Below are positions 13,245-60,790 of a stretch of 64,000 nucleotides of DNA, in pieces. The notes under the pieces were generated by a model. The model saw only the letters and a program-made list of their open reading frames with translations. It did no database searches and was not told the origin of the DNA. Within the stretch, counting starts at the first letter, position 1. Every line of letters starts with the position of its first letter. Made by a program: the position numbers and the translations under genes. Source of the stretch: Sphaerisporangium rubeum (GTDB lineage: Bacteria > Actinomycetota > Actinomycetes > Streptosporangiales > Streptosporangiaceae); assembly GCF_014207705.1 (NCBI RefSeq), contig NZ_JACHIU010000001.1, positions 6,068,501 to 6,132,500 of the forward strand, written 5' to 3'.

Positions 13245-14273
13245 TCAGGCGGACAGGCGTTCGGCCAGCCACGCCAGGGAGAGCGGGTAGCGGTAGTCGA
13301 TGGCGCCGTGTCCGGCGTCGAAGAGCTCGAAGTGGACGGCGTCCTCGCCGACCCCGTGGGCCAGCAGGGCCTTGTGGAAGGCCTGCGCGCCGAGGTCCAG
13401 GTAGAACTCGTCGCGTTTGCCGGCGTCGATCCAGATGGCGCGCATGGAGCGCAGGGCCTCGGCGTGCTCGGGGACCATGCGCACGGGGTCCCAGTCGAGC
13501 CACCGCTGCCAGGCCTGCGGACGCAGCGCGCCGGTCTCGGGATCGAACGGCAGTTCCGGGACGCCGTCCGGGCCGGGTGAGAAGGCGGCCGAACAGCCGA
13601 GCACGATCAGCAGGACCTCGTCGGCGGGGTCGGTGAAGGCCACACGGGACCGGAACCCCTCCCACCAGCGCCGGATGTCGCCGCCGTACTCACGCAGGTG
13701 CCGGGTGGCCTTGGCGAACTCCGGCAGGTAGCAGTACTCGTACAGCGTGTCCCCCGCGTGGGTGGCGAGCCCGCCGAACAGGTCGGGCCGGAGCATCGGG
13801 GTGATCATGGCGCCGAAGCCGCCGCTGGACTTGCCGGTGATGCCGCGGTGGTCGCGGCCGGCCAGTGTGCGGTAGTGCTCGTCCACCCATGGCACGACCT
13901 CGTCGCACAGATACGAGTGGTACGGCCCCGTGCCGGCCGAGTCGACGAACTGGCTGCCGCCGTAGGCGGTCCAGGCGTCCACGTAGACCACGATCGCCGG
14001 AGGCGCGGACCCGCCGGCGAACACCTGGTCGGCCGTCTCGATGAACGGCCGCCGGTACGGCGAGCGGTTGCGCCACATCGCGAGGTGACCCGTGTACCCC
14101 TGGATGACGTAGATCGACGGGTAGCGCCGGCCGGGCTCGTCGTCGTACCCCGGCGGCACGTACACCCACAGCGGCCGTTCGTGCGGGTCACCCAGGGGGT
14201 TGCCGCGCAGCAGCGCGCTGTCGATCACGTGCTCGTCGAGGCGTCCTTCGAGGTCGGCCCGCCAGGGAAGCAT
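13245..14273 (-). CDS. Alpha/beta hydrolase, esterase D / enterochelin-esterase-like
   Basis: The 342-residue cytoplasmic hydrolase has an N-terminus with the PLWVYVPPGYDDEPGRRYPSIYVIQGYTG pattern of the putative esterase family (PF00756). The nucleophile elbow is GITGKSSGGFGAM (G-K-S-S-G). An acid in the IWIDAGKRDEFYLD region and a histidine in LFDAGHGAIDYRYP complete a likely Ser-Asp-His triad. No signal peptide is seen. ATG 14273 is chosen because GGAGG lies 4 nt upstream and longer readings lack family similarity. Members act on short acyl esters, S-formylglutathione or siderophore esters; the substrate cannot be read from the sequence. Confidence 0.85.
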   Translation of the reverse strand: MLPWRADLEGRLDEHVIDSALLRGNPLGDPHERPLWVYVPPGYDDEPGRRYPSIYVIQGYTGHLAMWRNRSPYRRPFIETADQVFAGGSAPPAIVVYVDAWTAYGGSQFVDSAGTGPYHSYLCDEVVPWVDEHYRTLAGRDHRGITGKSSGGFGAMITPMLRPDLFGGLATHAGDTLYEYCYLPEFAKATRHLREYGGDIRRWWEGFRSRVAFTDPADEVLLIVLGCSAAFSPGPDGVPELPFDPETGALRPQAWQRWLDWDPVRMVPEHAEALRSMRAIWIDAGKRDEFYLDLGAQAFHKALLAHGVGEDAVHFELFDAGHGAIDYRYPLSLAWLAERLSA

Positions 14274-14347
14274 GAGTCCTCCATCCGCCGATGTTCCGTC
14301 AAAGATCCCCGAGGCATTCTGCCGTTCCTCGTGCCGCGGCGGGACCC

Positions 14348-14686
14348 TCAAGGCATCGTGGGGAGCCCGGAGCCGTTGGCGCCGGCGGGATCCCAGCCGA
14401 GCAGGGACATCAGGCGGCGCACGTGGACCGGGACGTTGTGCAGCCGGGCCGGGCCTTCCGCCGCGGAGGAATCGGGCTGGACGAGGGACCGCAGGCCCGA
14501 CAGGTCGACGAAACGCAGGCCCGCGACGTCGACGTCCAGCGGGCCGTGCAGCGCGGAGAGGCGGGTGAGCGCGGCGCCGAACGCGGCGCTGTTGGACAGG
14601 TCGACCTCGCCGGTGACACGCACCCAGCCGTCCGACGTCCGGGTGACACGCAGGTGAGCATCCTCATAGAGCACGTCCACCGCCAT
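14348..14686 (-). CDS. STAS-domain protein (anti-sigma factor antagonist-like)
   Basis: The 112-residue product has the STAS fold pattern: VRVTGEVDLSNSAAFGAAL (beta-strand then helix 1), PLDVDVAGLRFVDLSGLRSLVQ with the conserved D-x-S-G-L that carries the regulatory serine in SpoIIAA-type proteins, and a C-terminal strand-helix RLHNVPVHVRRLMSLLG. Partner-switching of sigma factors through kinase/phosphatase pairs is the family role. The GAF-PP2C phosphatase at 51.4 kb is one possible partner, but this is inference. ATG 14686 starts the domain. It is divergent from the wHTH gene. Confidence 0.8.
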   Translation of the reverse strand: MAVDVLYEDAHLRVTRTSDGWVRVTGEVDLSNSAAFGAALTRLSALHGPLDVDVAGLRFVDLSGLRSLVQPDSSAAEGPARLHNVPVHVRRLMSLLGWDPAGANGSGLPTMP

Positions 14687-14858
14687 TGCTCCCGCCGTAA
14701 GCTCGTTGGTCCACTCGGCCGGATCTCGGCGCAGCGTCCGGAAGCCCCTGCCGCCGCCCACACAAAGGTATTATGATACCTGAATTGCGATTCGCCTATC
14801 TGACAGCCAAGATAGCGTGTCGACCCCGCACTTCTCTTCGCGTAGAGAGAAAACTGTG

Positions 14859-15203
14859 ATGCAGGATCCGAAGGACACGGTGAAGGCGCGCGAGGAGCCG
14901 GCCGGCGGGAGCCGCTGGACCTTCCTCACCAACCACGCGCGCATCTTGCTGGAGGTCGCCAGGAACCCGCAGGCCAGGCTACGTGACATGGCGGAGCGGG
15001 CCGGCATCACCGAGCGCTCGGCACAGCTCATCGTGAACGATCTGGAGGCCGCGGGTTACCTCCAGCGCACCCGGGTCGGCCGCCGCAACCACTACACCGT
15101 CGACCCGAGCCGCCGCCTGCGCCACCCCGCCGAGGCCGACCACCGCGTCGAGGGCCTGCTGGCCCTGTTCACCCAGCACGAGGACTCCGAGCCGTCCACC
15201 TGA
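14859..15203 (+). CDS. Winged helix-turn-helix (ArsR/MarR-like) regulator
   Basis: The 114-residue product is built around WTFLTNHARILLEVARNPQARLRDMAERAGITERSAQLIVNDLEAAGYLQRTRVGRRNHYTVDPSRRLRHP, a winged HTH with a basic wing. This pattern is frequent in streptomycete and related small regulators. A start at GTG 14817 is possible and would add 14 residues; ATG 14859 is preferred because GTAGAGAG lies upstream. There is no ligand domain beyond a short C-terminal helix (VEGLLALFTQHED). It is transcribed divergently from the STAS gene. Confidence 0.75.
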   Translation: MQDPKDTVKAREEPAGGSRWTFLTNHARILLEVARNPQARLRDMAERAGITERSAQLIVNDLEAAGYLQRTRVGRRNHYTVDPSRRLRHPAEADHRVEGLLALFTQHEDSEPST

Positions 15204-15223
15204 CCCCCGCGAGACACGGCGCA

Positions 15224-15255
15224 CGCCCGCGATGCCTTCCAGGCGGTCGCGGGCG
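15224..15255. terminator. Hairpin between convergent wHTH and SPW genes
   Basis: A 9-bp perfect stem (CGCCCGCGA at 15224-15232, TCGCGGGCG at 15247-15255) with a 14-nt loop lies just after the wHTH stop. Confidence 0.5.
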
Positions 15256-15269
15256 CCGGTGCCGGCCGC

Positions 15270-15728
15270 TCAGCGGTGGCCGTCGCCGCCGAACCTCTGC
15301 GGCTTGCGGCGCATCATCCCGAAGGCCATGGCGCCGAGGCCGAGCAGCAAGATGATCGTCCCGATGACCACGTTGCTCCACACCGTCGAGGCGCTGACGG
15401 AACGCAGCACGAACGGCGCGATGATCGTCCAGAGTCCGATGACCGGCGCGATCCAGCTCAGCCCGTAGGTGCGGCCGTAGGCCGAGGCGAACCCCATGGC
15501 GAGGACGGCGAGCGCCAGCCCGGTGATGAGGTTGTTGACCGCCAGGCGGGAGAACCCGCTGAAACCGACGATCCACGGCGAGATGGCCAGGTAGAGACCG
15601 GACACGATGTTGAGTCCCTCGGTCACCTGTGCCACGGGCATCGAGCCCGCGCGCTCGCGTGTCGCGCGCATCTCCTGGATGTCGGGATGCCGTTCCATGC
15701 CCGTGGGCCTGACCATGGCTTCCACCAC
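15270..15728 (-). CDS. SPW-repeat membrane protein
   Basis: The 152-residue product has four transmembrane helices. Two SPW-repeat units (PF03779) are visible: GLYLAISPWIVGFSGFSRLAVNNLITGLALAVLAMG (with SPW) and WIAPVIGLWTIIAPFVLRSVSASTVWSNVVIGTIILLLG (a degenerate WTIIAPF copy). A charged N-terminal region of about 35 residues (RHPDIQEMRATRERA) faces the cytoplasm, as in most actinobacterial members. The function of SPW proteins is unknown; they are linked with acid-resistance type membrane proteins by similarity only. The start could be GTG 15728 or ATG 15716. Confidence 0.8.
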   Translation of the reverse strand: MVEAMVRPTGMERHPDIQEMRATRERAGSMPVAQVTEGLNIVSGLYLAISPWIVGFSGFSRLAVNNLITGLALAVLAMGFASAYGRTYGLSWIAPVIGLWTIIAPFVLRSVSASTVWSNVVIGTIILLLGLGAMAFGMMRRKPQRFGGDGHR

Positions 15729-15848
15729 CCTTCCGACTGGCGATTCCTACCTATTCCCGACATACCCCTGCAAAACAGGCAGACCACCATAAACGTCGTA
15801 ATGTTTACGTCTGCTGGACATAGCGCCAGACCCGTCGGTACAGGCCGG

Positions 15849-16499
15849 TCAGTGCTTGTCGACGGTGATGCCGAGCAGGTCGGCCATCGCGGGGGCCAGG
15901 TCCAGGAGTTGGAGCCTGGTGATGGTGGCGCCGCGCAGGGACGCGACGCCGTCGGTGAGACCGAGTTCGCGTGCGCCGCGCAGGTCGACGTTCTTGAGTT
16001 CGGCGCGGCCGAGGCGGGTCTCGTTGAGCACGCAGTCGTCGAACGTCACGTCGGTGAGGGTGGCCTCGGCGAAATCGGCGGCGCGCAGGACGCAGCCGGT
16101 GAAGGTGACCTCGCGCAACTTGGCGGCGCGGAAGTTGACCGAGTCGAACTTGCAGCCCTGGAAGACGACCTGGCGCAGGAGCGCGCCGTCCAGGCGCACC
16201 CCGGAGAGCGCTCCGCCGTCCACGTCGGTGTGCAGCCACTCGGTCTCGCCGAGATCGGAGCCGACCCAGCGGACCGAGCGCATCCACACGTCGTTGAACC
16301 GTGTGCGACGGTAACGGCCCGCCTCGAACGTCACGGAGGTCAGCGCGCTCTCCAGGAACCGGCCGTTCCCGGCGTCGACGTCGCCGAACTCCACATCCCG
16401 CACATGGACGGTGTCGTAGTCGCCCTCCCGCGTGAGCGGGCCGGAGAAATCCTCCAGGTACCGCGCGTACGGCAGGTCGTCGAACTCACGGACCGCCAT
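15849..16499 (-). CDS. Pentapeptide repeat protein
   Basis: The 216-residue product is dominated from about residue 60 to 190 by A(D/N)LXX-type pentapeptides, seen in GALLRQVVFQGCKFDSVNFRAAKLREVTFTGCVLRAADFAEATLTDVTFDDCVLNETRLGRAELKNVDLRGA. These coil into a right-handed quadrilateral beta-helix. Some members (Qnr, MfpA) mimic DNA and protect gyrase; others have no known role. The C-terminal end LLDLAPAMADLLGITVD is helical, like the dimer-forming cap in several members. No signal peptide is seen. It stands alone upstream of the divergent peptide locus, with the start at ATG 16499. Confidence 0.88.
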   Translation of the reverse strand: MAVREFDDLPYARYLEDFSGPLTREGDYDTVHVRDVEFGDVDAGNGRFLESALTSVTFEAGRYRRTRFNDVWMRSVRWVGSDLGETEWLHTDVDGGALSGVRLDGALLRQVVFQGCKFDSVNFRAAKLREVTFTGCVLRAADFAEATLTDVTFDDCVLNETRLGRAELKNVDLRGARELGLTDGVASLRGATITRLQLLDLAPAMADLLGITVDKH

Positions 16500-16642
16500 G
16501 ACGGCACCTCCCCCGTTCCCGCTTCCCCGGTGGCCCGACCCTACCGCTCGCCGGCCGCTTGACCCATTGCTGGAGCGTCTTGTCGGGAAGTTGGTGATCT
16601 GTCAGAGTCGGCAGGGATTCGCCGTGGACGGACGGGGGTCAC

Positions 16643-17854
16643 GTGTCGCTGACGTCAGGTGAGCTTGAGGACGTGCTGGTGGCGGTCACCGGCCAGGAGG
16701 TGGAGACGCCAGGGGAGATCCTGCACGTCACCCGGCGGGAACAGCCGTCGTTCCTCGCCACGCTGCTGAGCGCGTGGGAACGCGACGGACGCGACATCGG
16801 GCCCGGCCTGACGTACGAGCTCACGCAGCTGCGGCGGCGCACGGAGTTCTACCAGGAGGTCCGGGGCCGGCTGGCGCGGGAGTGGGATGATCCGGTCTCG
16901 CTGAAGGGACTGGAGGTCGCCGACCGGTACCCGGCGCCGCTGTTGCGGTACATGAACGACCTGGACTACTGGGTGCCGGAGCAGGAGCGGCTCTGGGGGA
17001 TGGCACGCCGGCTGGTCGACGACGGATGGGCCGTGCACAGCGCGACGTTCCTGCGGTACGACGGCGAGCTGCACGTCATCGTGAGCATGCGGCGGTTCCC
17101 CGAGGATCCCTACGCGCTGTCGTACGGCGTGGAGATCGGCACCCCCGCGTTGCTCGGCGACCGGCTCGGGGTGCCGACGCGGATGCGGCTGCCGGCGCCG
17201 TGCGCCGATCCGGTCGCCAAGAACCTGGTGGCGATGCTGATGGAGCGGTTCGAGCAGCCGTTCCGGGCCCGTGACCTGGTGGACGCCTCGGTGCTGCTCG
17301 GCGACGCGCCGCCGGCGTCGGTGAAGTCCTGCGCGCTCGCGGTGCACGAGCTCGGGTTGTGGCCCGAGTACGCGGAGCTGGTGGAGTTGCTCGGCCGCAC
17401 GCCGCTCGAGGTGCCGCGCCTGCCGGGTGACCTGCGCACGCTGAGCGTCGCGGCGCGCGCCAGGCGGCGGGCCACGACGGCCGGAGCGCTGCGCCGGCCG
17501 CTCGACTTCGCGCTCAAGGGCCTGCAGAACCACATGATGACCGGCGGCTCCGGCCTGCTGTCCCGGCGTGCCTGGGGCCTGGCCGAGCGCAGGCTGGACG
17601 CGCGCGCCGCGCTGAAGGCGGGCCTGCTGCTGTTCGCGCTGCCGGTGGACACCGGCCGGCGGGCTCCGCGCGCCGAGCTGTACGACCGCGGCGGCACGCT
17701 GTGGGCCGACACGCCGGTCGGCAGCTTCGTCCTGGTGCACGGCGACGAGATCGACGAGGACGCGCTCGACGGCGCCAAGGCCACCGGTGACGTCGGGGAC
17801 TCCGAGGAGGCGAGGGCCGCCAGAGGCGCCACGGACGGTGAGGAGGACCGATGA
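16643..17854 (+). CDS. Nucleotidyltransferase-like protein (NTP_transf_5 type), first gene of peptide-array operon
   Basis: The 403-residue product contains LAREWDDPVSLKGLEVADRYPAPLLRYMNDLDYWVPEQERLW, which matches the PF14907 pattern: a K-G at the end of a strand, a Y-P-x-P-x-x-R segment, and an acidic D-L-D pair that would bind Mg-NTP. VHSATFLRYDGELHVIVSMRRF continues the NTase fold, and the C-terminal half is helical. Family members occur in several RiPP loci, where the substrate is usually unknown; AMP or another nucleotide transfer to a peptide is inference. GTG 16643 follows GGGGGTCAC. Its TGA overlaps the M16 peptidase ATG (ATGA). The acidic tail (EEARAARGATDGEEDR) is unlikely to be catalytic. 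Confidence 0.7.
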   Translation: MSLTSGELEDVLVAVTGQEVETPGEILHVTRREQPSFLATLLSAWERDGRDIGPGLTYELTQLRRRTEFYQEVRGRLAREWDDPVSLKGLEVADRYPAPLLRYMNDLDYWVPEQERLWGMARRLVDDGWAVHSATFLRYDGELHVIVSMRRFPEDPYALSYGVEIGTPALLGDRLGVPTRMRLPAPCADPVAKNLVAMLMERFEQPFRARDLVDASVLLGDAPPASVKSCALAVHELGLWPEYAELVELLGRTPLEVPRLPGDLRTLSVAARARRRATTAGALRRPLDFALKGLQNHMMTGGSGLLSRRAWGLAERRLDARAALKAGLLLFALPVDTGRRAPRAELYDRGGTLWADTPVGSFVLVHGDEIDEDALDGAKATGDVGDSEEARAARGATDGEEDR

Positions 17855-19071
17855 GGGAGCCCGAGCGGGCCGCGCTGGACAACGGGGTGCCGGTGTGGGT
17901 GCTCAGGAGGCCGGGGGCCACCGCCACGTCGGTGACGACGTGGCTGCTCACCGGGTCGCGGTACGAGCCGGAGCGGGTGGCGGGTGGCACGCACCTGCTC
18001 GAGCACATCCTGATGCAGGCGCCGCTGCCGGAAGGCCGGCCGGTGGACCTGCTCGAAGGGCTCGGCGGCGAGGCCAACGCCATCACCAGTCGCGACCACC
18101 TGGTGCTGTACGCGCGGGTGCCGTCGCCTGAGGCGCCGGCCGCGCTGGAGATCCTCGGCCGCGCGCTCGCCACCCCGTCGCTCACCGAGGACGTGCTGGA
18201 GGCCGAGCGCAAGGTCGTGCAGGAGGAGCTGCGGCTCGCGGCGGGTGACCCGTTCGACATCGTGCACGACGTGTTCTACGACGTGGCGTTCTCCGGCCAC
18301 CCGCTGGCGAGGCCGGTCGGCGGTACCGCGGAGAGCGTGGAGAACGTCGGTCTGGCCGACCTGCGTGCCTTCCATGAGCAGTGGGTGCGCGCCGGGTCCG
18401 CCGGGGTGATCGTGTGCGGCGACATGACGACCGAGGCGGTGCTCGCGGTGCTGTCGGCGGGGCCGCTCGCCTCACTTCCCCCCGCCGCCGCGGCCGCCGG
18501 TCACGGCACACCGCGGGTGTCGGGTGGCCGGCGCGATCTGGCGCTCAACAACGACTCGGCCGGGGTGGTGCTCGGCGGGCCCGCCGTGCCGTACGGACAT
18601 CCGCTGCTGCCGGCGTGGCAGGTGCTGATGGACCTCGTCGCGGGGGCCAGCTCGGCGCTGCTGTTCGAGGAGATCAGGAACCGCAGGGGCCTGGCGTACG
18701 AGATGTGGGGTTTCACCAACGCCTACCGCGACACCGGTGTGTGGCGCGCGTTCGTCGCCACCGCGCCTGAGCACGCCGAGGAGGTCGTGGCGCTCGGCAC
18801 GTCGCTGCTGCGGGAACGGGCCGAGCGCGGCTGGAGCGCCGAGGAGGTCGAGGTCGCCACCCGGCGTACGGCGGGGCTGCTGCAGCTGGAGACCGAGCAG
18901 TCGCTCGAGGAGGCGCTGCTCTACGGCCGCTACGGCCTGATCCCCGGTCACCCCTCGTGGACCCTGGCCGGACAGGTGGCCGCGATCCGCGCGGTGACGG
19001 CGGACGACGTGCTGTCCTGCCTGCGCATGGCGATCGACCCGATGATCGTGTCGGTGGCCGGAGTCGAATGA
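17851..19071 (+). CDS. M16-family zinc peptidase (PqqF/insulinase-like)
   Basis: The 406-residue product has the inverted zinc motif H-x-x-E-H in GGTHLLEHILM (about residues 46-54), with the third ligand glutamate about 75 residues later in LEAERKVVQEELRLAAGDP. The second, inactive-fold half has EEIRNRRGLAYEMWGF, which carries the R/Y pair that closes the M16 chamber. One polypeptide of this length is the M16B type, which usually forms dimers and cuts short, often basic, peptides. It lies directly before an array of small basic peptide genes and is translationally coupled to the nucleotidyltransferase. Processing of those peptides is the obvious hypothesis. No signal peptide is seen. Confidence 0.88.
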   Translation: MREPERAALDNGVPVWVLRRPGATATSVTTWLLTGSRYEPERVAGGTHLLEHILMQAPLPEGRPVDLLEGLGGEANAITSRDHLVLYARVPSPEAPAALEILGRALATPSLTEDVLEAERKVVQEELRLAAGDPFDIVHDVFYDVAFSGHPLARPVGGTAESVENVGLADLRAFHEQWVRAGSAGVIVCGDMTTEAVLAVLSAGPLASLPPAAAAAGHGTPRVSGGRRDLALNNDSAGVVLGGPAVPYGHPLLPAWQVLMDLVAGASSALLFEEIRNRRGLAYEMWGFTNAYRDTGVWRAFVATAPEHAEEVVALGTSLLRERAERGWSAEEVEVATRRTAGLLQLETEQSLEEALLYGRYGLIPGHPSWTLAGQVAAIRAVTADDVLSCLRMAIDPMIVSVAGVE

Positions 19072-19158
19072 TGCGGCGCCAGCCATTGACTAATGCGCCA
19101 CCATCCCCGAAAACTCAGTAAATAGCGCCATTCGCCAGGTTTCATGAATGGTGGTCCT

Positions 19159-19191
19159 CGCCGAGCCCATGGGTGACCGCGGGTCTCGGCG
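19159..19191 (+). promoter_or_regulatory. Hairpin ahead of the mini-peptide array
   Basis: A 10-bp stem (CGCCGAGCCC at 19159-19168 with GGGTCTCGGCG at 19181-19191, one bulged base) has a 12-nt loop, 24 nt before the first mini-gene. It has no T-run, so it could be an RNA-processing or stabilising element as readily as an attenuator. The 144 nt between the M16 stop and the array hold no other clear feature. Confidence 0.35.
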
Positions 19192-19215
19192 TACGGGTTC
19201 ACGCAGGGGGTGAGC

Positions 19216-19272
19216 ATGGACCGTCACAAGAAGGCACTGCGCCGTCCGAAGATCAACGGAAAGAAGGGCTGA
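19216..19272 (+). CDS. Mini-peptide 1 of tandem array (18 aa)
   Basis: Product: MDRHKKALRRPKINGKKG. CAGGGGG lies 6 nt before the ATG. It carries the array consensus M-D-R at the start, A-L-R-R-P in the centre and K-K-G at the end. Net charge is about +7. The KKG codons (AAGAAGGGC) double as a ribosome site for the next mini-gene, which starts 3 nt after the TGA. Not recognised as any known peptide family. Confidence 0.75.
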   Translation: MDRHKKALRRPKINGKKG

Positions 19273-19275
19273 GAA

Positions 19276-19335
19276 ATGGACCGTCACGCGCTCGCATCGC
19301 GCCGTCCGAAAACCAGGAAGACCAAGAAAGGCTGA
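19276..19335 (+). CDS. Mini-peptide 2 of tandem array (19 aa)
   Basis: Product: MDRHALASRRPKTRKTKKG. It starts 3 nt after mini-gene 1 stops. The conserved MDR, RRP and KKG blocks are present with different residues between them, as expected for separately selected peptides rather than a copy error. It ends AAGAAAGGC TGA, two bases before the next ATG. Confidence 0.78.
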   Translation: MDRHALASRRPKTRKTKKG

Positions 19336-19337
19336 CC

Positions 19338-19397
19338 ATGGACCGCGGCTATGTCCAGTTACGCCGTCCGAAAATACGTAAGTCCAAAAAGGGCTGA
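19338..19397 (+). CDS. Mini-peptide 3 of tandem array (19 aa)
   Basis: Product: MDRGYVQLRRPKIRKSKKG. It starts 2 nt after mini-gene 2 (TGACCATG junction). This is the only member with an aromatic residue (Tyr5). MDR, LRRP and KKG are kept. A 37-nt gap separates it from mini-gene 4. Confidence 0.78.
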   Translation: MDRGYVQLRRPKIRKSKKG

Positions 19398-19434
19398 GCA
19401 GCGCCGGCCCCGCGACGTCGCAAGGAAGTGACCC

Positions 19435-19491
19435 ATGGACCGAGACCACCGCAACAGCCGCCGGCCACGAGTGAGGAAGGGCCGCTCATGA
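19435..19491 (+). CDS. Mini-peptide 4 of tandem array (18 aa, divergent tail)
   Basis: Product: MDRDHRNSRRPRVRKGRS. It has its own ribosome site (AAGGAAG, 7 nt upstream). The core RRPRVRKG is conserved but the end is RKGRS instead of KKG. Its TGA overlaps the ATG of mini-gene 5 (ATGA), so these two are directly coupled. Confidence 0.72.
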   Translation: MDRDHRNSRRPRVRKGRS

Positions 19492-19544
19492 ACCGTGCAC
19501 GTGTCGCACTTCGCCGTCCCCGTACCCGCACGAAGAAGGGCTGA
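19488..19544 (+). CDS. Mini-peptide 5 of tandem array (18 aa)
   Basis: Product: MNRARVALRRPRTRTKKG. Except for Asn2 it is identical in amino acids to mini-peptide 6. The two genes form adjacent 59-bp direct repeats (19488-19546 and 19547-19605) that differ at a few, mainly synonymous, positions. This indicates a recent tandem duplication with selection on the protein. Confidence 0.78.
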   Translation: MNRARVALRRPRTRTKKG

Positions 19545-19546
19545 CC

Positions 19547-19603
19547 ATGGACCGCGCACGAGTCGCACTTCGCCGTCCCCGTACCCGCACGAAGAAGGGC
19601 TGA
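19547..19603 (+). CDS. Mini-peptide 6 of tandem array (18 aa)
   Basis: Product: MDRARVALRRPRTRTKKG. It starts 2 nt after mini-gene 5 at a TGACCATG junction, with AGAAGGGC of the previous gene acting as the ribosome site. It is the closest of all to the array consensus. Confidence 0.8.
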   Translation: MDRARVALRRPRTRTKKG

Positions 19604-19605
19604 CC

Positions 19606-19659
19606 ATGGACCGCGCACGCCGACTGCTCCGCCGTCCCACAGTGCGCAAGCCCAAGTAG
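19606..19659 (+). CDS. Mini-peptide 7 of tandem array (17 aa)
   Basis: Product: MDRARRLLRRPTVRKPK. It begins with the same MDRAR as its neighbours, keeps LLRRP, but ends RKPK with a TAG stop and no final glycine. It starts 2 nt after mini-gene 6. Confidence 0.75.
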   Translation: MDRARRLLRRPTVRKPK

Positions 19660-19664
19660 GGACG

Positions 19665-19715
19665 ATGGACCGTAAAGGCAAGGCGGCCCGCAGGCCGCGC
19701 GTCCGCAAAGGCTGA
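19665..19715 (+). CDS. Mini-peptide 8 of tandem array (16 aa)
   Basis: Product: MDRKGKAARRPRVRKG. It is the shortest member, with AAGTAGGGACG before the ATG. MDR, ARRPRVRKG and the terminal glycine are kept. It is followed by 37 nt holding AGGAG, the ribosome site of the NDP-kinase-like gene. Confidence 0.75.
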   Translation: MDRKGKAARRPRVRKG

Positions 19716-19752: not shown

Positions 19753-20610
19753 GTGACGACGATCGACTGGCAGCGGACCGCTCTCATGCTGTTGCCGCCT
19801 GACGCGCTCGAACGTCACCTCTGCTCCCCCGTCCTGGACATGCTGGACCGGCACGGCTTCACGCCGGTCCGCCACGAGGTGCTGTGGCACCGGCCCCCCG
19901 GCCAGGACGCATGGCAGGAACGCAACATCACTTCCGTGTGGAAGGCCTACTTCTACCGGCAGGTCGATCTGGTCTTCGACCTCGGGCCGACCATCGCCCT
20001 GCTGGTAGAGGACAGGCGGCCGTCCGGCGCCACCCACGAGCGCCTGCGCGCGCTCAAGGGGGCCAGCGATCCCGCCGAGGCGGCCCCCGGCACGATCCGC
20101 CGGGACCTGCGCGGCATCAACGTGATGCTCGACATCGTGCACACCTCCGACAGCCCCGAGGACTCCGAGCACGAGGCCTCGGTGTTCTTCGGCCCCGGCC
20201 TCGGCAGGCCGCTGGACGGCGGCCTGGCCGAGCTGCGCGACCTCGTGGGCCTGCTGGAGGCCGGCGTCCCGAAGGAGACCCGCGAGTACGACGACGTCCG
20301 CGTCGGGCTGCGCGCCAAGATCGTCGCGGCGCTGTGGCCCGAGCTCGGGGAGCTCGGCCGCAAGCTCGCGCCTGGCCTGGTCGCCGACCCGCGGCCCGGC
20401 GCCGGAGCCGAGCTGGCCGCACTGCTCCCCGGAGGCGACGCGCATCCGCTGGCGGAGATCGTGGCCTGCGAGTTCCTCCCCGATCACCCCAGGGTCGACC
20501 TGAAGCGCGCGGCGGCGAAGCTCGCCGTCCACGGCCTGCCTCTGGACCGCTGGGAGAACGTCGTCCTGCAGACCTCCATGCTCTTCCCGCCGCTGCGCCG
20601 CTCCACCTAG
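19753..20610 (+). CDS. NDP-kinase-like protein with a changed active site, last gene of peptide-array operon
   Basis: The 285-residue product contains HERLRALKGASDPAEAAPGTIRRDLRGINVMLDIVHTSDSPEDSEHEASVFFG, which follows the nucleoside diphosphate kinase core (canonical GATnPxeAxPGTIRxD ... NxVHgSDSxExAxxEIxxFF). The phospho-accepting histidine is kept (His130), as is the GTIR arginine. The N-terminal KPD lysine of NDP kinases is replaced (LLPPDALE), and the asparagine before the His motif is Asp. The C-terminal about 130 residues are an extra domain I do not recognise. GTG 19753 is chosen because AGGAG lies 6 nt upstream. It could phosphorylate or bind a nucleotide or nucleotidyl-peptide; this is inference. 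Confidence 0.68.
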   Translation: MTTIDWQRTALMLLPPDALERHLCSPVLDMLDRHGFTPVRHEVLWHRPPGQDAWQERNITSVWKAYFYRQVDLVFDLGPTIALLVEDRRPSGATHERLRALKGASDPAEAAPGTIRRDLRGINVMLDIVHTSDSPEDSEHEASVFFGPGLGRPLDGGLAELRDLVGLLEAGVPKETREYDDVRVGLRAKIVAALWPELGELGRKLAPGLVADPRPGAGAELAALLPGGDAHPLAEIVACEFLPDHPRVDLKRAAAKLAVHGLPLDRWENVVLQTSMLFPPLRRST

Positions 20611-20613
20611 GCC

Positions 20614-21726
20614 CTAGGCCAGCCGGGTCGTCCGCGCGCTCTCGGTCACCGCGGGAGCGAGGCGGCCGTCCAGCGGCAGGATCCAGCCCGGCAGCTCGGT
20701 CGCCGTGCAGCCCCTCGCGGTCTTGGCCTCCGTGCTTCCCTGGCCGTAGTGGAGGCGGCGGACACCGGCGCCGTACGCGAGACGCGCGGGTTCGTAGAAG
20801 ACGGTGGCGAAGTAGGCATGGCGCGCGTCGGGACGCGTGTAGTCCATACCGGTGCTCACGCAGTACCAGACGCCGCCGTGCGTGACGAACAGCGCGTAGC
20901 CGACGAGAGCACCGGCGATCTCGGCGCGGAACAGCAGAGCGCCGCCGGCGCACAGACCTTCGAGGCGCGCACGGATCCCCTCACGGCCGGAGGGGACGCC
21001 GTTGTACTTGGCCGAGTGGCCGCGCTTGAGCTCCACCACGTCCTGCGGCGGCTGGGTCACCTCGGCGGCCCGCACGGTCATGCCGGCCTCGGCGAGCCGC
21101 CGCAGTTCGCGCCGCGCCTCGGTGCGGCGCTTGCGCGGCAGGGACGCCAGGTAGTCCTCGAACCGGTCCCCCAGCGGCGCCAGCTCGCAGGTGTACGCCA
21201 GGGGGACCCGCAGGAAGCCGCGGGCCGCCAGCTCGCCTTGAAGCGCGCCGGCCGACGGCGGGGTGTACAGGAACGCCACGGCCCGCAGCGACCGTTCCCC
21301 GGCCCACGCCACGATCGCGTCGCACAGCTCCCCGAGCGCCGCGGGGTCGCCGGCCAGCGGGCCGAGCGGGTGGCACTCGTAGCCGGGGAGCATGACGACC
21401 AGGTAGGGGTGCCAGGCGGCGTCGGGTGGCGCGCCTGCGAGGGGACGCAGCGCGCGGGTGGCGGCGGCCAGCGGCAGCTCCACCGGGTCGCCGGTGAGGA
21501 TGTACGGAAGGCTGAACACCTCGCGGCGGCCTCCGGCGTCCGGCACCGTGCCGTACAGAGCGAGGACCGGGGTGCCGGAGTCGTGGAGCGTGAAGGTGTA
21601 CGCGGCGCCGGGGATCCGGCCGCGCATGGCGGCAAGCCAGCGTTCGGTGGCGAAGAGCGGACCGCCTTCGGCGAGCGCGGCCCACTCGGGGGGACGGCCG
21701 GGGTGCGCCGTGAAGCGCCGCGTCAC
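20614..21726 (-). CDS. FemAB-like / GNAT-fold transferase A
   Basis: The 370-residue product belongs to the FemAB_like/peptidoglycan-type GNAT superfamily (PF04339-like). GPLFATERWLAAMRGRIPGAAYTFTLHD is the usual start, FEDYLASLPRKRRTEARRELRRLAEAGMTVRAAE the central basic helix region, and ALVGYALFVTHGGVWYCVSTGMDY and AYFATVFYEPARLAYGAGVRRLHYGQGSTEAKTARG the C-terminal acyltransferase half. Related enzymes (Fem ligases, PacB) pass an amino acid from aminoacyl-tRNA to a peptide or amine, while others use acyl-CoA. It starts at GTG overlapping the upstream FemAB-like gene stop (GTGA) and converges on the mini-peptide operon, with only 3 nt between the stops. Role in peptide decoration is inference. 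Confidence 0.75.
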   Translation of the reverse strand: MTRRFTAHPGRPPEWAALAEGGPLFATERWLAAMRGRIPGAAYTFTLHDSGTPVLALYGTVPDAGGRREVFSLPYILTGDPVELPLAAATRALRPLAGAPPDAAWHPYLVVMLPGYECHPLGPLAGDPAALGELCDAIVAWAGERSLRAVAFLYTPPSAGALQGELAARGFLRVPLAYTCELAPLGDRFEDYLASLPRKRRTEARRELRRLAEAGMTVRAAEVTQPPQDVVELKRGHSAKYNGVPSGREGIRARLEGLCAGGALLFRAEIAGALVGYALFVTHGGVWYCVSTGMDYTRPDARHAYFATVFYEPARLAYGAGVRRLHYGQGSTEAKTARGCTATELPGWILPLDGRLAPAVTESARTTRLA

Positions 21727-22748
21727 CTGGCCGGACGCGCGGGAAGCAGGCAGGCGTCGAGCGCCAGCGGCGTGAGGCCGTGCCGGCGTTTGAAGACGTG
21801 GTTGCCGCGACCGCCTTCCAGGGTGTCGCGGCCCTCGGCGAGCGCCTGGGCCACCGAGGTGGTGTACAGCAGCGGGTAGGGGCTGTAGTTGCCGCCGACG
21901 TCGTAGTGGACGCCGCAGGCCCAGGCGTGGAACCGGGTGCGGTCGCGCAACGAGACGGCCACCCCGACCAGGCGTTCCTCCTCATGGATCTCGATGACGC
22001 AGGCGGCGTCGCCGAGCGCGGTGACGAACCCGGTGAACAGCTCCTCTGGGTAGTAGCCGCCGGTGCCGTGCCGCTTGGAGGTGGCGGCGCACAGCGCGGT
22101 GACCGCCGCCAGGTCCACGTCCCGCGGCGGCGCCACCCGGACGCGCACCCCGGCGTCGGCGGCGCGGCGTCCGTTGCGGCGGTAGTTCTTGCGGCCGGTG
22201 GGCCGCGCGCCGGCGATGAAGTCGTCCACCCGCGTCATCCCCCGCAGGTCCACCTGGTAGCGGTCCTCGATGTGGTGCGCGGGAAAGCCTTCGGCGAGCA
22301 GGGCCTCGCGCAGCCACGACCCGGCCGGCACGTTGACGAAGCCGTACCAGGCGGCGCCGAGGTCGCGCGCGAGGTCACACATGGCGCCGGTCACCGCGGC
22401 GACGTGCGCCGGTGTGGACGCGCCGGGGATCCAGGCGTCGTAGCAGTGCCACACGTGGCTGAGCAGGCCGCGTTCCTCACCGGTCACGGGGTAGCGCGCG
22501 CGGAGCTGGCGCAGCGGGTCCAGGCCGCGCAGCAGGGAAACGGGGAGCACCGCGACGGCACGGCCCCGGTCGCGGACCACGAAATAGGAGAAGGACTCGA
22601 TGTCGGTCAGCGGAAAACGCTCATAGGTACGCAAATAGTGCGCCTGATAAAAAACCGGCGCTCCCGCCTCAGATACAACATCATCCCATTCGGTCAAGTC
22701 AACGGCATCGATGGACTTGTGAACGTCGACCGTCAAAGCTGAGCTCAA
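21723..22748 (-). CDS. FemAB-like / GNAT-fold transferase B
   Basis: The 341-residue product is a second FemAB-like protein, only distantly similar to its neighbour. VFYQAHYLRTYERFP and SYFVVRDRGRAVAVLPVSLL form the first lobe. The basic joint DDFIAGARPTGRKNYRRNGRRAADAGVRVRVA has the family's characteristic (R/K)-N-x-R-R pattern. CVIEIHEEERLVGVAVSLRDRTRFHAWACGVHYD and EGRDTLEGGRGNHVFKRRHG form the catalytic lobe. TTG 22748 is taken as start because GGGGG lies upstream; ATG 22823 would add 25 unconserved residues and has no ribosome site. It diverges from the ThiS/ATPase gene, and the 114-nt gap between them probably holds both promoters. Confidence 0.72.
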   Translation of the reverse strand: MSSALTVDVHKSIDAVDLTEWDDVVSEAGAPVFYQAHYLRTYERFPLTDIESFSYFVVRDRGRAVAVLPVSLLRGLDPLRQLRARYPVTGEERGLLSHVWHCYDAWIPGASTPAHVAAVTGAMCDLARDLGAAWYGFVNVPAGSWLREALLAEGFPAHHIEDRYQVDLRGMTRVDDFIAGARPTGRKNYRRNGRRAADAGVRVRVAPPRDVDLAAVTALCAATSKRHGTGGYYPEELFTGFVTALGDAACVIEIHEEERLVGVAVSLRDRTRFHAWACGVHYDVGGNYSPYPLLYTTSVAQALAEGRDTLEGGRGNHVFKRRHGLTPLALDACLLPARPAR

Positions 22749-22862: not shown

Positions 22863-24068
22863 GTGGCTCACGTGGTCTTCCACAACAAAGTCGGTGGATC
22901 CGAGACACTGGACGCGACACCGGGACGGCCACTCACCGAGGTGCTCACCGCGCACGGCATCCCGGTCAACGCCGTACTCACCACGGTCAACGGCAAGATC
23001 GCACCTGAGGAGACCACGACCGTCGGCCCCGACGACGTCATCGAGATCCGCCAGGTGCGCCACTACGACATGGACGTCACCCGGCGTCCCGCGCGCACCG
23101 TCTACGGCACCTCCGACCCGATCTACGCCAAGACCGTGCTCTTCGACATCTCGGGACGGCTGGAGCAACGCGTCGAGCAGTTCGACGCCGAAGGCTTCGT
23201 GCGGTACGTCGAGGAGGCGTTCGTGCAGAGCGTGCTCAGCCACGGTGTGCTGCGCGCCGGGGACTCGGTCGTCATCGGCCTGTCCGGCGGACGCGACAGC
23301 GTGGCGTTCCTCAAACTGCTCGAACGCACCGGCAGCCGCTTACCGGACTTCTCCATGACGTCGGTCACCATCACCGGCCTGCCGGACTGGGAGGAACCCG
23401 CGACGTTCGCCGCGGCCCGCGCGTCGGCCGCCGGGCTCGGCATCGACCAGGTCATCGTGACCGCCACGGACATCGAGCGCGTGTTCCGGCTGCGCAAGCC
23501 GTTCGTCGAGGCCATGAACAGCGTCGTGTCCGGCGAGAACCGGCACCTCAACATGGTCGTCGGCCACCAGGTGCTGCGGCGCATGCTGGAGAACCACGCG
23601 CAGGAGATCGGCGCCGGCACCGTGGCGTTCGGCTTCAACGCCGACGACCTGGTGGCGAGCATGGTGACGTGGCTGACCAGCGGGTACCGCATGGGTGGCA
23701 TCCCGGTGCGCGAGCTCGGCGGGCTGCGGTACATCTTCCCGCTGTACCGCATCACCAAGAAGGAGCTGATGCTGTACCTGGAGCTGGTGGCCCCCGAGCT
23801 GAACCGCCAGGGGACACCGGGCCGGTTCACCACGGGGCCGCAGGAGCGGTCGATGGCGTACGCCATGGCCGACCACCTGTACGGCCTGTGGCCCGGCATC
23901 GACTACTACCTGTTCGAGTCGTTCGCCACCATGCAGCGGTACATGTTCCCGCTGGTCGAGCAGAAGTGCCGGGTGTGCGAAGGGGTCTACATCCTGCAGG
24001 AAGGCGTGCCGAACCCGGCCGACCTCTGCGACGTGTGCGACTTCTTCGGCCGCCAGGAATTCTCGTGA
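22863..24068 (+). CDS. ThiS-like domain fused to PP-loop ATPase (TtcA/AANH-like thiolation enzyme)
   Basis: The 401-residue product starts with a beta-grasp domain (about 1-68: VVFHNKVGGSETLDATPGRPLTEVL ... INGKIAPEET-like turn ... DVIEIRQV) resembling ThiS/MoaD sulfur carriers. The PP-loop ATP pyrophosphatase domain follows, with SGGRDS at 141-146. Its C-terminal zinc-type cysteines, CRVC and CDVC, resemble those of TtcA/Ncs6 tRNA-thiolating enzymes. These adenylate a carbonyl-type oxygen and replace it with sulfur. Fusion to a carrier domain suggests a self-contained sulfur transfer enzyme, possibly making a thio group on a peptide or small molecule rather than tRNA. It is the first gene of a four-gene operon joined by GTGA overlaps. 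Confidence 0.78.
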   Translation: MAHVVFHNKVGGSETLDATPGRPLTEVLTAHGIPVNAVLTTVNGKIAPEETTTVGPDDVIEIRQVRHYDMDVTRRPARTVYGTSDPIYAKTVLFDISGRLEQRVEQFDAEGFVRYVEEAFVQSVLSHGVLRAGDSVVIGLSGGRDSVAFLKLLERTGSRLPDFSMTSVTITGLPDWEEPATFAAARASAAGLGIDQVIVTATDIERVFRLRKPFVEAMNSVVSGENRHLNMVVGHQVLRRMLENHAQEIGAGTVAFGFNADDLVASMVTWLTSGYRMGGIPVRELGGLRYIFPLYRITKKELMLYLELVAPELNRQGTPGRFTTGPQERSMAYAMADHLYGLWPGIDYYLFESFATMQRYMFPLVEQKCRVCEGVYILQEGVPNPADLCDVCDFFGRQEFS

Positions 24069-25966
24069 CCCGTTGGTACGCCGACTACTTCACCGCCGAC
24101 TACTGGAGCTTCGCACGGCACGAGTACACCGCGGAGCGCACCGCCGGCGAGGTCGCGTACCTGCTCAAGACCCTCGCGGAACACGCGCCTGGCCGCCGGG
24201 TGCTCGACCTCGGCTGCGGCGTCGGACGGCACGCGGTGCCGCTCGCCGAGCACGGCCACGACGTGACCGGCGTGGACGTGTGCCGCTGGGCCCTGGACCA
24301 GGCAGGCGCGGCGGCGGGCCGCGCCGGGGTGCCGCTGCGGCTGGTGGAGGCCGACCTGCTCGGCGGGGGGCCGCTGCCTGAGGCCGACGCGGTGATCTGC
24401 CTGCAGGCGTTCGGCTGGGGGGACGACGGCGAGCAGCTCCGGATGCTGCGCCGGGTGCGGGACGCGCTGGCGCCTGGCGGGCTGCTCGTGCTGGACCACT
24501 CCAACGTGGACGCGATCCTGCGGCACTACCGGCCGACGGCGCGGTTCGAGGCCGAGGGGACGGTGTTCGACTTCTTCCGTTCCTACGACACCTTGTCCGG
24601 CCGGAGCCGGGGAGAGCTGCGGGTGACGTACGCCGGCGGGAAGGTGGCGCGACTGCTGGACGACGTGCGGCTGTACCGGCCCCCTGAAGTGGCCGGGCTG
24701 CTGGCCGCCGCCGGTTTCGACGTGCTGCGCGCCGACGCCGCCTTCACCTCCGGCGCCGCCGTGGACCTCGACACCCGCTACGTGCAGTTCGTGGCCCGGC
24801 GCCGCGAGGTCCCCCGGCCCGCCGTTCTCGACCACCGGTCCCCGGCCTCCGGCACGCTCGACCTGCGCTCGGCACCGGACGAGGTGGAGTACGTCCAGGA
24901 CGTCCTCACCGAGGTCTGGTCCGGACTCGGCACCGGCGCGTCCCCTGCGCTGCCTTTTCCGGCGACCGCCGCGTCCCCGGCCGCGCTTCTTCCGCCGACC
25001 GCCGCATCGGTAGCCGCTGCCGCGCCTTCTTCGGCGGCCACGCCTGTGTCCTCCGCCGGAAGCGCGGTCGGCGGGGATCTGCTCGACCTCTCCAGGGACT
25101 ACGCGTTGCGCGACCCCTACGGCGGGGAACGCGCGGCCCCCGTGCTTTCGCGGCATTTCGGGACCGAGATCACCCCTGACCGGGTTGTCGCGGGGGCCGG
25201 TACCACCGGACTGCTCGCCGCGCTGAGCGCGCTCGCGGCGCCTGGCACCGTGTTGTGCACCCCGTACGCGCACCCCGACCTCCTCGGCTGGGCCGCCACG
25301 CACGGCGCGGAACTGCGTGTCTTCGACCCGGCCGCCGGCGACGCCGCCGAGGTCGTCGCCGCGGCCCGGCCGTCCCTGATCGTGGTGGAACGGCCAGGGG
25401 TGCTCGGCGACCTGCTGCCTGCCGAGCGGGTCGCGGCGCTGGCCGAGGCCGCCGCCGAGGCGGGGTCCCTGCTCGTGCTCGACGAGGCCTGCGCCGCCTA
25501 CGCGGGACCGGAGGCGAGCGCCGTCCCCCTGACGTCCCGCCTCCCGGGCCTCGTGGTGCTGCGCAGCCTCTCCAAGGGGTACTGCTGCGGCGGCCTGCGC
25601 GCCGGTTTCGCCGTCTGCTCCGCCGGCGCGGCACCGGCCCTGCGCCGGGTCGCGCCGCCGCTCGCGGTCGCGTCGCTCTCCTTACGGTTCGCGCTGCGCC
25701 TGCTGTCCCGTGGCGACCTGCTCACCCCCCTGCGCACCGCGCTCGCCACCGCCAAACCGGCCCTCGTGGACGGCCTGCGCGACCTCGGCGCCACGGTCGT
25801 CCCCGGTCATCCGGCACTCCCCTGGGTCGTCGTCGAAGGCACGCCGCCGGACGGCGTCACCGGCAAGCCCGTCCGTCCCCTGACCGGCGGCCCCGCTGTG
25901 ACGAGGGTGAGCGTGCCGCTGTCGGCGGAGCGGCGCGCGGCGTTCTCCCGCCTGGTGGGCCGGTGA
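24065..25966 (+). CDS. Methyltransferase-aminotransferase fusion protein
   Basis: The 633-residue product has two catalytic domains. Residues 1-245 are a class I SAM methyltransferase (VLDLGCGVGRHAVPLAEHGHDVTGVD, ADAVICLQAFGWGDDGEQLRMLRRVRDALAPGGLLVLD). After an Ala/Pro/Ser-rich linker (about 290-345), residues 350-633 are a class I/II PLP aminotransferase with VVAGAGTTGLLAALSAL, the LVLDEACAAYAG Asp/Tyr and the Schiff-base lysine in LRSLSKGYCCGGLRAGF. The aminotransferase resembles the histidinol-phosphate/threonine-phosphate decarboxylase group in length. The GTG start overlaps the previous stop. It would make both an N/O/C-methylation and a transamination or decarboxylation in the same pathway; the substrate is unknown. 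Confidence 0.8.
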   Translation: MTRWYADYFTADYWSFARHEYTAERTAGEVAYLLKTLAEHAPGRRVLDLGCGVGRHAVPLAEHGHDVTGVDVCRWALDQAGAAAGRAGVPLRLVEADLLGGGPLPEADAVICLQAFGWGDDGEQLRMLRRVRDALAPGGLLVLDHSNVDAILRHYRPTARFEAEGTVFDFFRSYDTLSGRSRGELRVTYAGGKVARLLDDVRLYRPPEVAGLLAAAGFDVLRADAAFTSGAAVDLDTRYVQFVARRREVPRPAVLDHRSPASGTLDLRSAPDEVEYVQDVLTEVWSGLGTGASPALPFPATAASPAALLPPTAASVAAAAPSSAATPVSSAGSAVGGDLLDLSRDYALRDPYGGERAAPVLSRHFGTEITPDRVVAGAGTTGLLAALSALAAPGTVLCTPYAHPDLLGWAATHGAELRVFDPAAGDAAEVVAAARPSLIVVERPGVLGDLLPAERVAALAEAAAEAGSLLVLDEACAAYAGPEASAVPLTSRLPGLVVLRSLSKGYCCGGLRAGFAVCSAGAAPALRRVAPPLAVASLSLRFALRLLSRGDLLTPLRTALATAKPALVDGLRDLGATVVPGHPALPWVVVEGTPPDGVTGKPVRPLTGGPAVTRVSVPLSAERRAAFSRLVGR

Positions 25967-27819: not shown

Positions 27820-29060
27820 CGTCCGCGACACCGGCCACACCCAAGGACAGCGCGGCACGGCCGATGCGACGGCTGATGCGTGACCGCCGGTTCGTGCTGC
27901 TGTTCGCCGGCCAGGCGATCAACATGTTCGGCGACCGCGCGTTGCTGATCGTCCTCGCCATCTGGGTGAAGGAGCTGACCGGCTCGGACGCGCTGGCCGG
28001 TGTGATCTTCGTGCTGCTGGCGGTGCCGTCGCTGCTGGCCCCGGTGACCGGCCTGATCGTGGACCGGTTCCCGCGCCGCGCGACGCTCATCGTGAACGAC
28101 CTGGTGGCGGCGGCCCTCGTGCTGTGCCTGCTGCTGGTGCGCGGCCCCGGGGACATCTGGATCGTGTTCGCGGTCACCCTCGGGTACGGCATCTCGAACG
28201 CGATCTTCAACGCGGCGCGCGGCGGCCTGCTGCACTCCATGGTCCCCGCCGAGCTGCTCGGCGACGCCAACGGCCTGTTCGGCTCGCTCGCGCAGGGCCT
28301 GCGCATCCTCGGCCCGCTGCTCGGCGCGGGCCTGTTCGTGGCGCTCGGGCTCGGCGCGGTGGCGATCCTCGACGCCGGCACGTTCCTGCTGTCGGTGGTG
28401 GTCCTGCTGCTGCTGCGCCGCACCCCCGACCTGGTGCGGTCCGGCGACGGTGAGAAGGGCCACCTGTGGCGTGACCTGACCGCCGGGGTGCGGCACATCA
28501 TCGGGGACCGGGAACTGCGTGGCGCGGTCGTCGCGCTCGGGCTGGCGCTCGGCGCGGCCGGTCTGATCAACCCGGCGATGTTCGCGGCCGTGGACCAGGG
28601 CCTGAACCGTTCGTCGGCGTTCATCGGGGTCGTCGCGGCGTTCCAGGGAGCGGGGTCCATCGCGGGGGGTCTCATGGTCGGCACGCTGATCCGCCGGTTC
28701 GGCGAGCGGCGCACGGCCGCGATCGGGTTCCTGTTCAGCACGGTCGGCCTGGTGCTGGTCATCCCCACGAGCGAGGCCGGCATGTGCGCCGCCGGGGTGC
28801 TCGTCGGGGTGTCCATCCCGGTCTTCATGGTGGCGACGACGACGCTGGTGCAGCGCAGCACGGCCAAGGAACTCCAGGGACGGGCTCTCACCGCGATGGA
28901 CGCGCTGATCGACATCCCGTTCGTCGGGTCCCTGGCGCTCGGGTCGTTCATCATCCAGTTCGTGGAGTACCGCCTGGTGTACGCGTTCAGCGCGCTGGCG
29001 TTCGCGGTGGTCGCGCTGTTCGTGCTGCTGCCGCGCCGCGACCGGGCCGCGGTGGTCTAG
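27816..29060 (+). CDS. MFS transporter (EntS/MFS_3-type exporter)
   Basis: The 414-residue product has 12 predicted transmembrane helices. It starts RRLMRDRRFVLLFAGQAINMFGDRALLIVLAIWV, typical for MFS_3 exporters, with the VDRFPRRATLI loop (motif A-like) between helices 2 and 3. The charged middle loop (RRTPDLVRSGDGEKGHLWRD) divides two six-helix halves. The GTG start overlaps the M28 gene stop (GTGA), so it belongs to the same operon and most likely exports the product. Its TAG shares the CTAG bases with the convergent phosphodiesterase gene. Confidence 0.85.
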   Translation: MTSATPATPKDSAARPMRRLMRDRRFVLLFAGQAINMFGDRALLIVLAIWVKELTGSDALAGVIFVLLAVPSLLAPVTGLIVDRFPRRATLIVNDLVAAALVLCLLLVRGPGDIWIVFAVTLGYGISNAIFNAARGGLLHSMVPAELLGDANGLFGSLAQGLRILGPLLGAGLFVALGLGAVAILDAGTFLLSVVVLLLLRRTPDLVRSGDGEKGHLWRDLTAGVRHIIGDRELRGAVVALGLALGAAGLINPAMFAAVDQGLNRSSAFIGVVAAFQGAGSIAGGLMVGTLIRRFGERRTAAIGFLFSTVGLVLVIPTSEAGMCAAGVLVGVSIPVFMVATTTLVQRSTAKELQGRALTAMDALIDIPFVGSLALGSFIIQFVEYRLVYAFSALAFAVVALFVLLPRRDRAAVV

Positions 29061-60788: not shown

Positions 60789-60790
60789 CC

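Follow-up and report, generated by a model that had tools for sequence, protein, structure and literature searches.

The window analysed here, a 64,000-nucleotide stretch of the Sphaerisporangium rubeum genome, contains at 19216-19715 an array of eight head-to-tail open reading frames of 16-19 codons each (Table 1). All follow the plan M-[DN]-R-X5-R-R-P, and the resulting peptides of 16-19 residues end in KKG, RKG, GRS or KPK; the mini-peptides have a net charge of +6 to +8 (K, R, D and E counted). Successive frames are separated by 3, 2, 37, -4 (an ATGA overlap), 2, 2 and 5 nt, and the array DNA occurs once in the 7.5-Mb single-contig genome. A sequence-only reading that preceded this analysis had described eight tandem minigenes, mostly 2-5 nt apart with one ATGA overlap and one 37-nt gap, and we find all eight frames in place and the same spacing. 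Some of its details need adjusting. The start that it gave, ATG-GAC-CGT/C, holds in general but reads ATG-GAC-CGA in copy 4, and its K-K-G or R-K-G ending applies to most copies but not to copies 4 and 7. Copies 5 and 6, a 59-bp repeat that is 88% identical, had been said to encode the same peptide with mainly synonymous changes; two synonymous changes and one non-synonymous change separate them, and the latter makes residue 2 differ (N/D). Judging from the reading frames, the mini-ORFs are presumably translated.

Table 1. Features of the array and of the surrounding cluster in the window
Feature	Position	Strand	Sequence or remark
NTP5, NTP_transf_5-like (PF14907) nucleotidyltransferase	16643-17854	+	Conserved DxD; PF14907 score below curated cut-off
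M16B metallopeptidase	17851-19071	+	Pfam; HLLEH zinc motif; PDB 3hdi processing protease, E 1.6e-39
Upstream box, predicted array promoter	19085-19130	+	ATTGACTA ... AAAACTC ... ATAG
Mini-ORF 1	19216-19272	+	MDRHKKALRRPKINGKKG
Mini-ORF 2	19276-19335	+	MDRHALASRRPKTRKTKKG
Mini-ORF 3	19338-19397	+	MDRGYVQLRRPKIRKSKKG
Mini-ORF 4	19435-19491	+	MDRDHRNSRRPRVRKGRS; 4-nt overlap with mini-ORF 5
Mini-ORF 5	19488-19544	+	MNRARVALRRPRTRTKKG
Mini-ORF 6	19547-19603	+	MDRARVALRRPRTRTKKG
Mini-ORF 7	19606-19659	+	MDRARRLLRRPTVRKPK
Mini-ORF 8	19665-19715	+	MDRKGKAARRPRVRKG
NDK-like protein with extra C-terminal domain	19753-20610	+	Pfam NDK, E 6e-15; catalytic His conserved
FemAB/GNAT-like protein a	20614-21726	-	Pfam PF13480/PF04339
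FemAB/GNAT-like protein b	21723-22661 (start tentative)	-	Pfam PF13480/PF04339
PP-loop ATPase, tRNA thiolase relative	22863-24068	+	ThiS-like N-terminus by eye
Methyltransferase fused to CobD/HisC-like aminotransferase	24065-25966	+	
M28/DUF4910 peptidase-like protein	25963-27819	+	
MFS transporter	27840-29060 (start tentative)	+	
Type I phosphodiesterase/nucleotide pyrophosphatase-like protein	29057-30115	-	

The array belongs to a gene cluster that spans about 14 kb and is conserved: relatives of its genes keep their order in the other array loci throughout the stretches examined. The end of the array is separated by 37 nt from the NDK-like gene, which follows on the same strand. All 12 M16 proteins checked, the window protein included, have the HxxEH motif, and the M16 peptidase has an NCBIfam match to PqqF that lies far below the cut-off. 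The catalytic His of the NDK-like protein is invariant in both alignments made. A GNAT-fold 'hypothetical' protein resembles FemX and the aminoacyl-tRNA-dependent peptide synthases Sba18/Sbb17, among many acetyltransferases. Foldseek returned no match for NTP5 at E <= 0.001; in a closer fold comparison, MenT-type (tRNA-type toxin) folds ranked first among the matches listed and antibiotic adenylyltransferases were among the nearest, so NTP5 may have an acceptor other than the mini-peptide. A Pfam scan of the ten cluster proteins found no classical RiPP maturase; to our knowledge, RRE domains are not present in all RiPP classes. The PP-loop ATPase is the most conserved cluster gene, with 83-86% identity among array loci, and tblastn suggests that the methyltransferase-aminotransferase fusion is preserved in these loci. 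A role in anti-phage defence was considered and set aside, eight cluster proteins giving no PADLOC match at E <= 0.001. Elsewhere in the window, at 59709-63207, three adjacent genes appear by eye to be dioxygenase-like, FMN oxidase-like and aminotransferase-like, a set that may represent hydroxyphenylglycine biosynthesis.

Parts of this gene set also occur together elsewhere. Two related clusters (L037 in genome G030 and L038 in G018) carry NDK-like, two FemAB-like and NTP_transf_2 genes, and a search of both found no array, NTP5 match, M16 match or RPRLD peptide. Since NDK and FemAB genes are both present in these array-less clusters, they may serve a separate small molecule. L038 additionally has a PEP mutase, and the FemAB/NDK set may thus belong to phosphonopeptide-type pathways.

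Arrays in related genomes and selection on the peptides

Of the 341 family genomes searched, 14 matched a pattern of two mini-ORFs in tandem, the window's own genome among them. Eight of these matches are real arrays; inspection by eye assigns the other six to CRISPR-like repeats, which end in GGGGATGGACCG. As a control, the reversed pattern matched 0/341. The arrays hold 44 copies in all and range from two to ten: eight in the window genome (G000), ten in G006, five each in G007 and G009, six each in G015 and G354, and two each in G100 and G246. By eye, G007 and G009 each have one additional decayed copy. In all eight array genomes (8/341 of the family) the array lies between the M16 peptidase and NDK-like genes, with NTP5 before M16, which supports the earlier view, offered for checking in other actinomycete genomes, of tandem minigenes next to an M16 peptidase/nucleotidyltransferase pair. 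The spacing from start to RRP is eight codons in 41 of the 44 copies, five in two and nine in one.

Comparison of homologous arrays points to constraint on the encoded residues. Between Streptosporangium species S. pseudovulgare and S. sandarakinum, six ORF pairs differ by eight synonymous changes and one non-synonymous change (pS 0.095, pN 0.004), and between G009 and G007, from the window's genus, five ORF pairs differ by eight and three (pS 0.122, pN 0.016). In 33 copies from six of the eight arrays, the conserved Arg is encoded by CGC, CGT, CGG, CGA and AGG and the conserved Pro by CCG, CCC and CCA, so it is the residues that are kept rather than the codons. Together, the excess of synonymous changes and the mixed Arg and Pro codons argue that selection acts on the peptide rather than on the DNA, and they support the view that the mini-peptide family is under peptide-level selection. 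Equal rates of synonymous and non-synonymous change between homologous arrays had been named as the result that would tell against the sequence-only reading; the changes are mostly synonymous, at 8:1 and 8:3, so this test does not tell against it. The five variable residues are largely constant between orthologues, whereas copies within an array differ in them, and every copy therefore seems to persist as a peptide in its own right.

The tails of the mini-ORFs appear to serve another purpose. A Shine-Dalgarno 4-mer precedes 41/44 copies; by comparison, it occurs in 13.9% of 12-mers drawn at random from the cluster and stands before 5/20 internal ATGs. In 30 of the 36 non-last copies, the next ORF's Shine-Dalgarno begins inside the copy's own codons, and by hand count KKG ends 18/36 non-last and 0/8 last copies. 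On both grounds the most likely reading of the K-K-G tail is AAG-AAG-GGC, serving as ribosome-binding site for the ORF that follows. We have accordingly rejected the earlier idea of a conserved peptide motif as its main explanation; the tail for the most part carries the next Shine-Dalgarno. A test based on duplex energy gave no separation between real and shuffled upstream sequence (mean -7.7 vs -6.1; 52% vs 50% at or below -6 kcal/mol).

Upstream of the arrays, ATTGACTA is invariant in 6/6 aligned array loci (two close pairs included) while the flanks diverge; this box was not found upstream of the G100 and G246 arrays. A sigma-70 scan upstream of the array found no standard promoter. Folding, carried out among the arrays for that of the window alone, showed no hairpin behind it.

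Single-copy relatives

Relatives of NTP5 led to mini-genes outside the arrays. Among 296 genomes of the class, four have an NTP5 match at E <= 1e-8 (the window's own genome included), and among 197 genomes of an order nine have a match, two of them already known. Nine records of Streptomyces plasmids contain relatives at 29-34% identity. Beside one plasmid relative lies a mini-ORF encoding MTRNHAVGMRPRLDKIKVRSGK, an identical peptide being present in seven plasmid records, and beside a second lies MRNHKVGLRPRLDKVKVGR. The eight Streptomyces plasmid records with the peptide list no gene at its position, their gene tables being incomplete. Further mini-ORFs encode MTRNHATGLRPRLDKVKVKAAKA (L082 and L096), MNRNHAVGLRPRLDKVVKKG (L084), MERNHVSLLRPRLDKIKVKPVK (L097), MRNHKTGLRPRLDKVKTGR (L098) and MLMQLRPRLDKIGASAKPKDTEKAK (L083), with a weakly similar MSVAFKQVKVRPKPGK at L085. 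The exact array register, M-x-R-x5-x-R-P-R, is kept at L073, L082, L084, L096 and L097; the L075 and L098 peptides have one residue fewer at the start, and L083 keeps the R-P-R-L-D-K part alone.

Under one fixed rule, an RPRLD[KR] mini-ORF preceded by a Shine-Dalgarno, 8/14 NTP5 loci outside arrays pass (L074, L075, L082, L083, L084, L096, L097 and L098). L076 (S. microflavus), L085, whose peptide fails the RPRLD part, and L099-L102 do not, and 3 Mb of simulated sequence gave no match. RP[RK] alone arises by chance about 1.6 times per 20 kb. In a test set of seven further NTP5 loci, the peptide was present in 3/3 with M16 and GNAT genes and 0/4 without (the L101 stretch being 12 kb), and several of these loci have RP[RK] frames of the kind expected by chance, which lack the LDK part. 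An M16 peptidase accompanies 7/8 RPRLD[KR] loci, at L075 about 6 kb from the mini-gene. M16 was not found in the examined stretches of L083 and L085, both of which have a mini-ORF, and L083 speaks against a strict link between peptide and M16. An NDK-like gene was not found at L075, L083 and L098.

At 6/7 single-copy M16 loci (L073, L082, L084, L096, L097 and L098) the mini-ORF directly precedes M16 and shares its strand. At L075 the mini-gene runs in the opposite direction to its neighbours and has its own terminator-like hairpin, and at L085 the mini-ORF is followed by NTP5, not M16. Hairpins of at least 14 pairs follow 9/9 folded single-copy mini-ORFs, L085 included, with z from -2.7 to -6.8 (weakest at L097). 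Judged by their sequences, these genes place the window array in a wider family as its multi-copy form, the other members found here being single genes.

Other genes at these loci deserve mention. L083 and L097 have B12-type and SPASM-type radical SAM genes, which are common in RiPP clusters. At L099, L100 and L102 the NTP5 relatives have a different setting: an AMP-ligase-like gene lies about 6-8 kb from them, and neither an M16 match nor an RPRLD mini-gene was found there. At L084, some 6-12 kb from the mini-gene (13326-19287), NDK-like, P450, dCTP-deaminase-like and LysRS/EpmA-like proteins are encoded, which look like an uncharacterised nucleotide/amino-acid pathway.

Possible functions and comparison with known systems

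RiPP pathways in general are marked by a gene for a short ribosomal precursor next to candidate modifying enzymes and a peptidase, and this is the arrangement that we find, with mini-ORFs that are presumably translated. We consider it probable, with appreciable room for doubt, that the mini-genes encode the precursor peptides of an undescribed RiPP-type pathway whose enzymes are encoded by the surrounding genes. The earlier remark that no described family of this kind was known agrees with the literature searched, in which we found no matching description. A single mRNA from the predicted promoter at about 19085-19130 would span the array, and ribosomes finishing one mini-ORF would re-start on the next by stop-start re-initiation, giving eight peptides per message. 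At single-copy loci, equal dosage might be reached otherwise, via the strong hairpin that follows the mini-gene. The enzymes would recognise the fixed R-P core (register M-x-R-x5-x-R-P), and the products would differ from one another in the five variable residues. NTP5 and the NDK-like protein could add a nucleotide or phosphate, and the FemAB/GNAT-like proteins an aminoacyl or acyl group. Cleavage at the central R-R may fall to the M16 peptidase, whose relatives nardilysin and mitochondrial processing peptidase cut near basic residues. The MFS protein would then export the product, possibly a peptide-nucleotide conjugate or a carrier peptide. A bolder version, which we hold only tentatively, sees the array as a printed peptide library. 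One mRNA would carry a five-residue core in as many as ten variants, each set within an invariant R-P frame, Shine-Dalgarno sequences in the tails would hand the ribosome on, and the nucleotidyltransferase/NDK/FemX-like set would make peptide-nucleotide or aminoacyl-peptide conjugates that M16 excises, amounting to a new class of ribosomal natural product.

Other readings of the array fare differently against this evidence. A neutral repeat that stays open by chance might leave behind the 59-bp repeat of copies 5 and 6 and the decayed copies in G007 and G009, yet the synonymous excess, the differing frames and the conservation across genera make this explanation almost certainly wrong; on the same grounds, the earlier claim that a single duplicated non-coding repeat cannot account for the pattern is supported. 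The position of the array close before the NDK-like gene on the same strand, and of most single-copy mini-ORFs directly before M16, is what regulatory leader ORFs would predict if they sensed charged tRNA-Arg/Pro or ribosome speed and controlled the downstream gene. We nevertheless think such leaders very improbable, given that Arg and Pro codons are mixed while the residues are kept, that strong hairpins, possibly terminators, follow the single-copy mini-ORFs, and that neither the opposite-strand mini-gene of L075 nor the mini-ORF preceding NTP5 at L085 fits. It is scarcely easier to credit that the peptides act directly, as secreted cationic agents or signals trimmed by M16 and otherwise unmodified. 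Their charge and the transporter genes of the clusters would suit this role, but this would not explain why NTP5, NDK-like and GNAT-fold proteins so regularly accompany them.

A more serious contender, although on balance unlikely, is that the mini-peptide is a carrier, a scaffold on which tRNA-dependent or synthetase-like enzymes build amino acids or small molecules that M16 releases, with the peptide absent from the product. The two FemAB-like genes of the window cluster would fit, as would the synthetase-related proteins encoded within about 12 kb of single-copy mini-genes, cluster borders being approximate: HisRS and a HisRS-like protein at L074, a MetRS-like protein at L082 and the LysRS/EpmA-like protein at L084. 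The occurrence of FemAB and NDK genes without an array points the same way. A carrier, however, has no need for eight diversified copies, the mini-peptide C-termini vary, unlike those of PEARL carriers, and the window lacks a LanB-like match.

Should the RiPP-type reading be correct, the family would link PF14907-like nucleotidyltransferases, NDK-like proteins, FemX/GNAT-fold proteins and M16 peptidases to a genetically encoded peptide that can be directly tested and recoded. The array itself is a clear natural example of how ribosomes are predicted to pass from one very short ORF to the next, and in it a peptide's tail is constrained by the ribosome-binding site of the following gene. Because genes of 16-25 codons are easily missed, as in the eight Streptomyces plasmid records where they are unlisted, a whole pathway type can stay unseen.

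PEARL pathways (those to 3-thia amino acids and of ammosamide type) use a ribosomal peptide together with amino-acid ligating enzymes, a combination that the window cluster resembles. The enzymes here are instead FemAB/GNAT or synthetase-like, and the mini-peptide C-termini are not conserved. LanB-like proteins (PF04738) give nine matches in the S. rubeum genome, at about 157-176 kb and at 3.94 Mb, and none in the window. Outside the window, the several clustered matches at 157-176 kb probably mark a separate RiPP cluster. The lasso peptide pseudomycoidin likewise has a nucleotidyltransferase-annotated enzyme, PsmN, in its RiPP cluster; according to the published account, PsmN adds a hexose once the peptide is phosphorylated, and the authors do not decide whether nucleotidylation also takes place (PMC9266682). 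Unlike that cluster, ours has no lasso cyclase among the ten proteins scanned with Pfam. Lexapeptide and cacaoidin are similar in that an M16 enzyme with active and inactive domains is the predicted precursor peptidase, as the lines on these clusters in PMC8068269 have it; unlike these and PqqF systems, the window cluster has no lanthionine or PQQ maturases in the Pfam scan, and its precursors have no long leader.

The closest parallel in gene design is microcin C, as far as the sections of PMC6495379 on its precursor gene describe it. There the precursor is short, usually seven residues ending in Asn, and the seven-codon mccA ORF is read many times by one ribosome (in vitro, 71 rounds at 7 codons, 30 at 11 and 6 at 15), with a terminator between mccA and mccB (PMC6495379). 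Shared with our family are a very short ORF with a strong Shine-Dalgarno, adjoining modifying enzymes and a gene design that raises peptide yield (PMC6495379). As for a hairpin between peptide gene and enzymes, one follows 9/9 folded single-copy relatives and none follows the window array. The mini-peptide family differs in its 16-25 residues, in that 0/8 window peptides end in Asn, in having a PF14907-like enzyme, and in using a tandem array rather than re-reading one seven-codon ORF. ThiF/MccB-type proteins (PF00899) give four matches in the S. rubeum genome at E <= 0.001, the nearest more than 450 kb away and none in the window, for which reason we do not count the cluster as a member. Re-reading would bring little benefit to ORFs of 16-19 codons, and an alternative route to yield would be to line up tandem copies in which the ribosome-binding sites are built in. 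As in microcin C, a nucleotidyl-transfer step is plausible here, and the resemblance between the two systems is a likeness of design, not membership.
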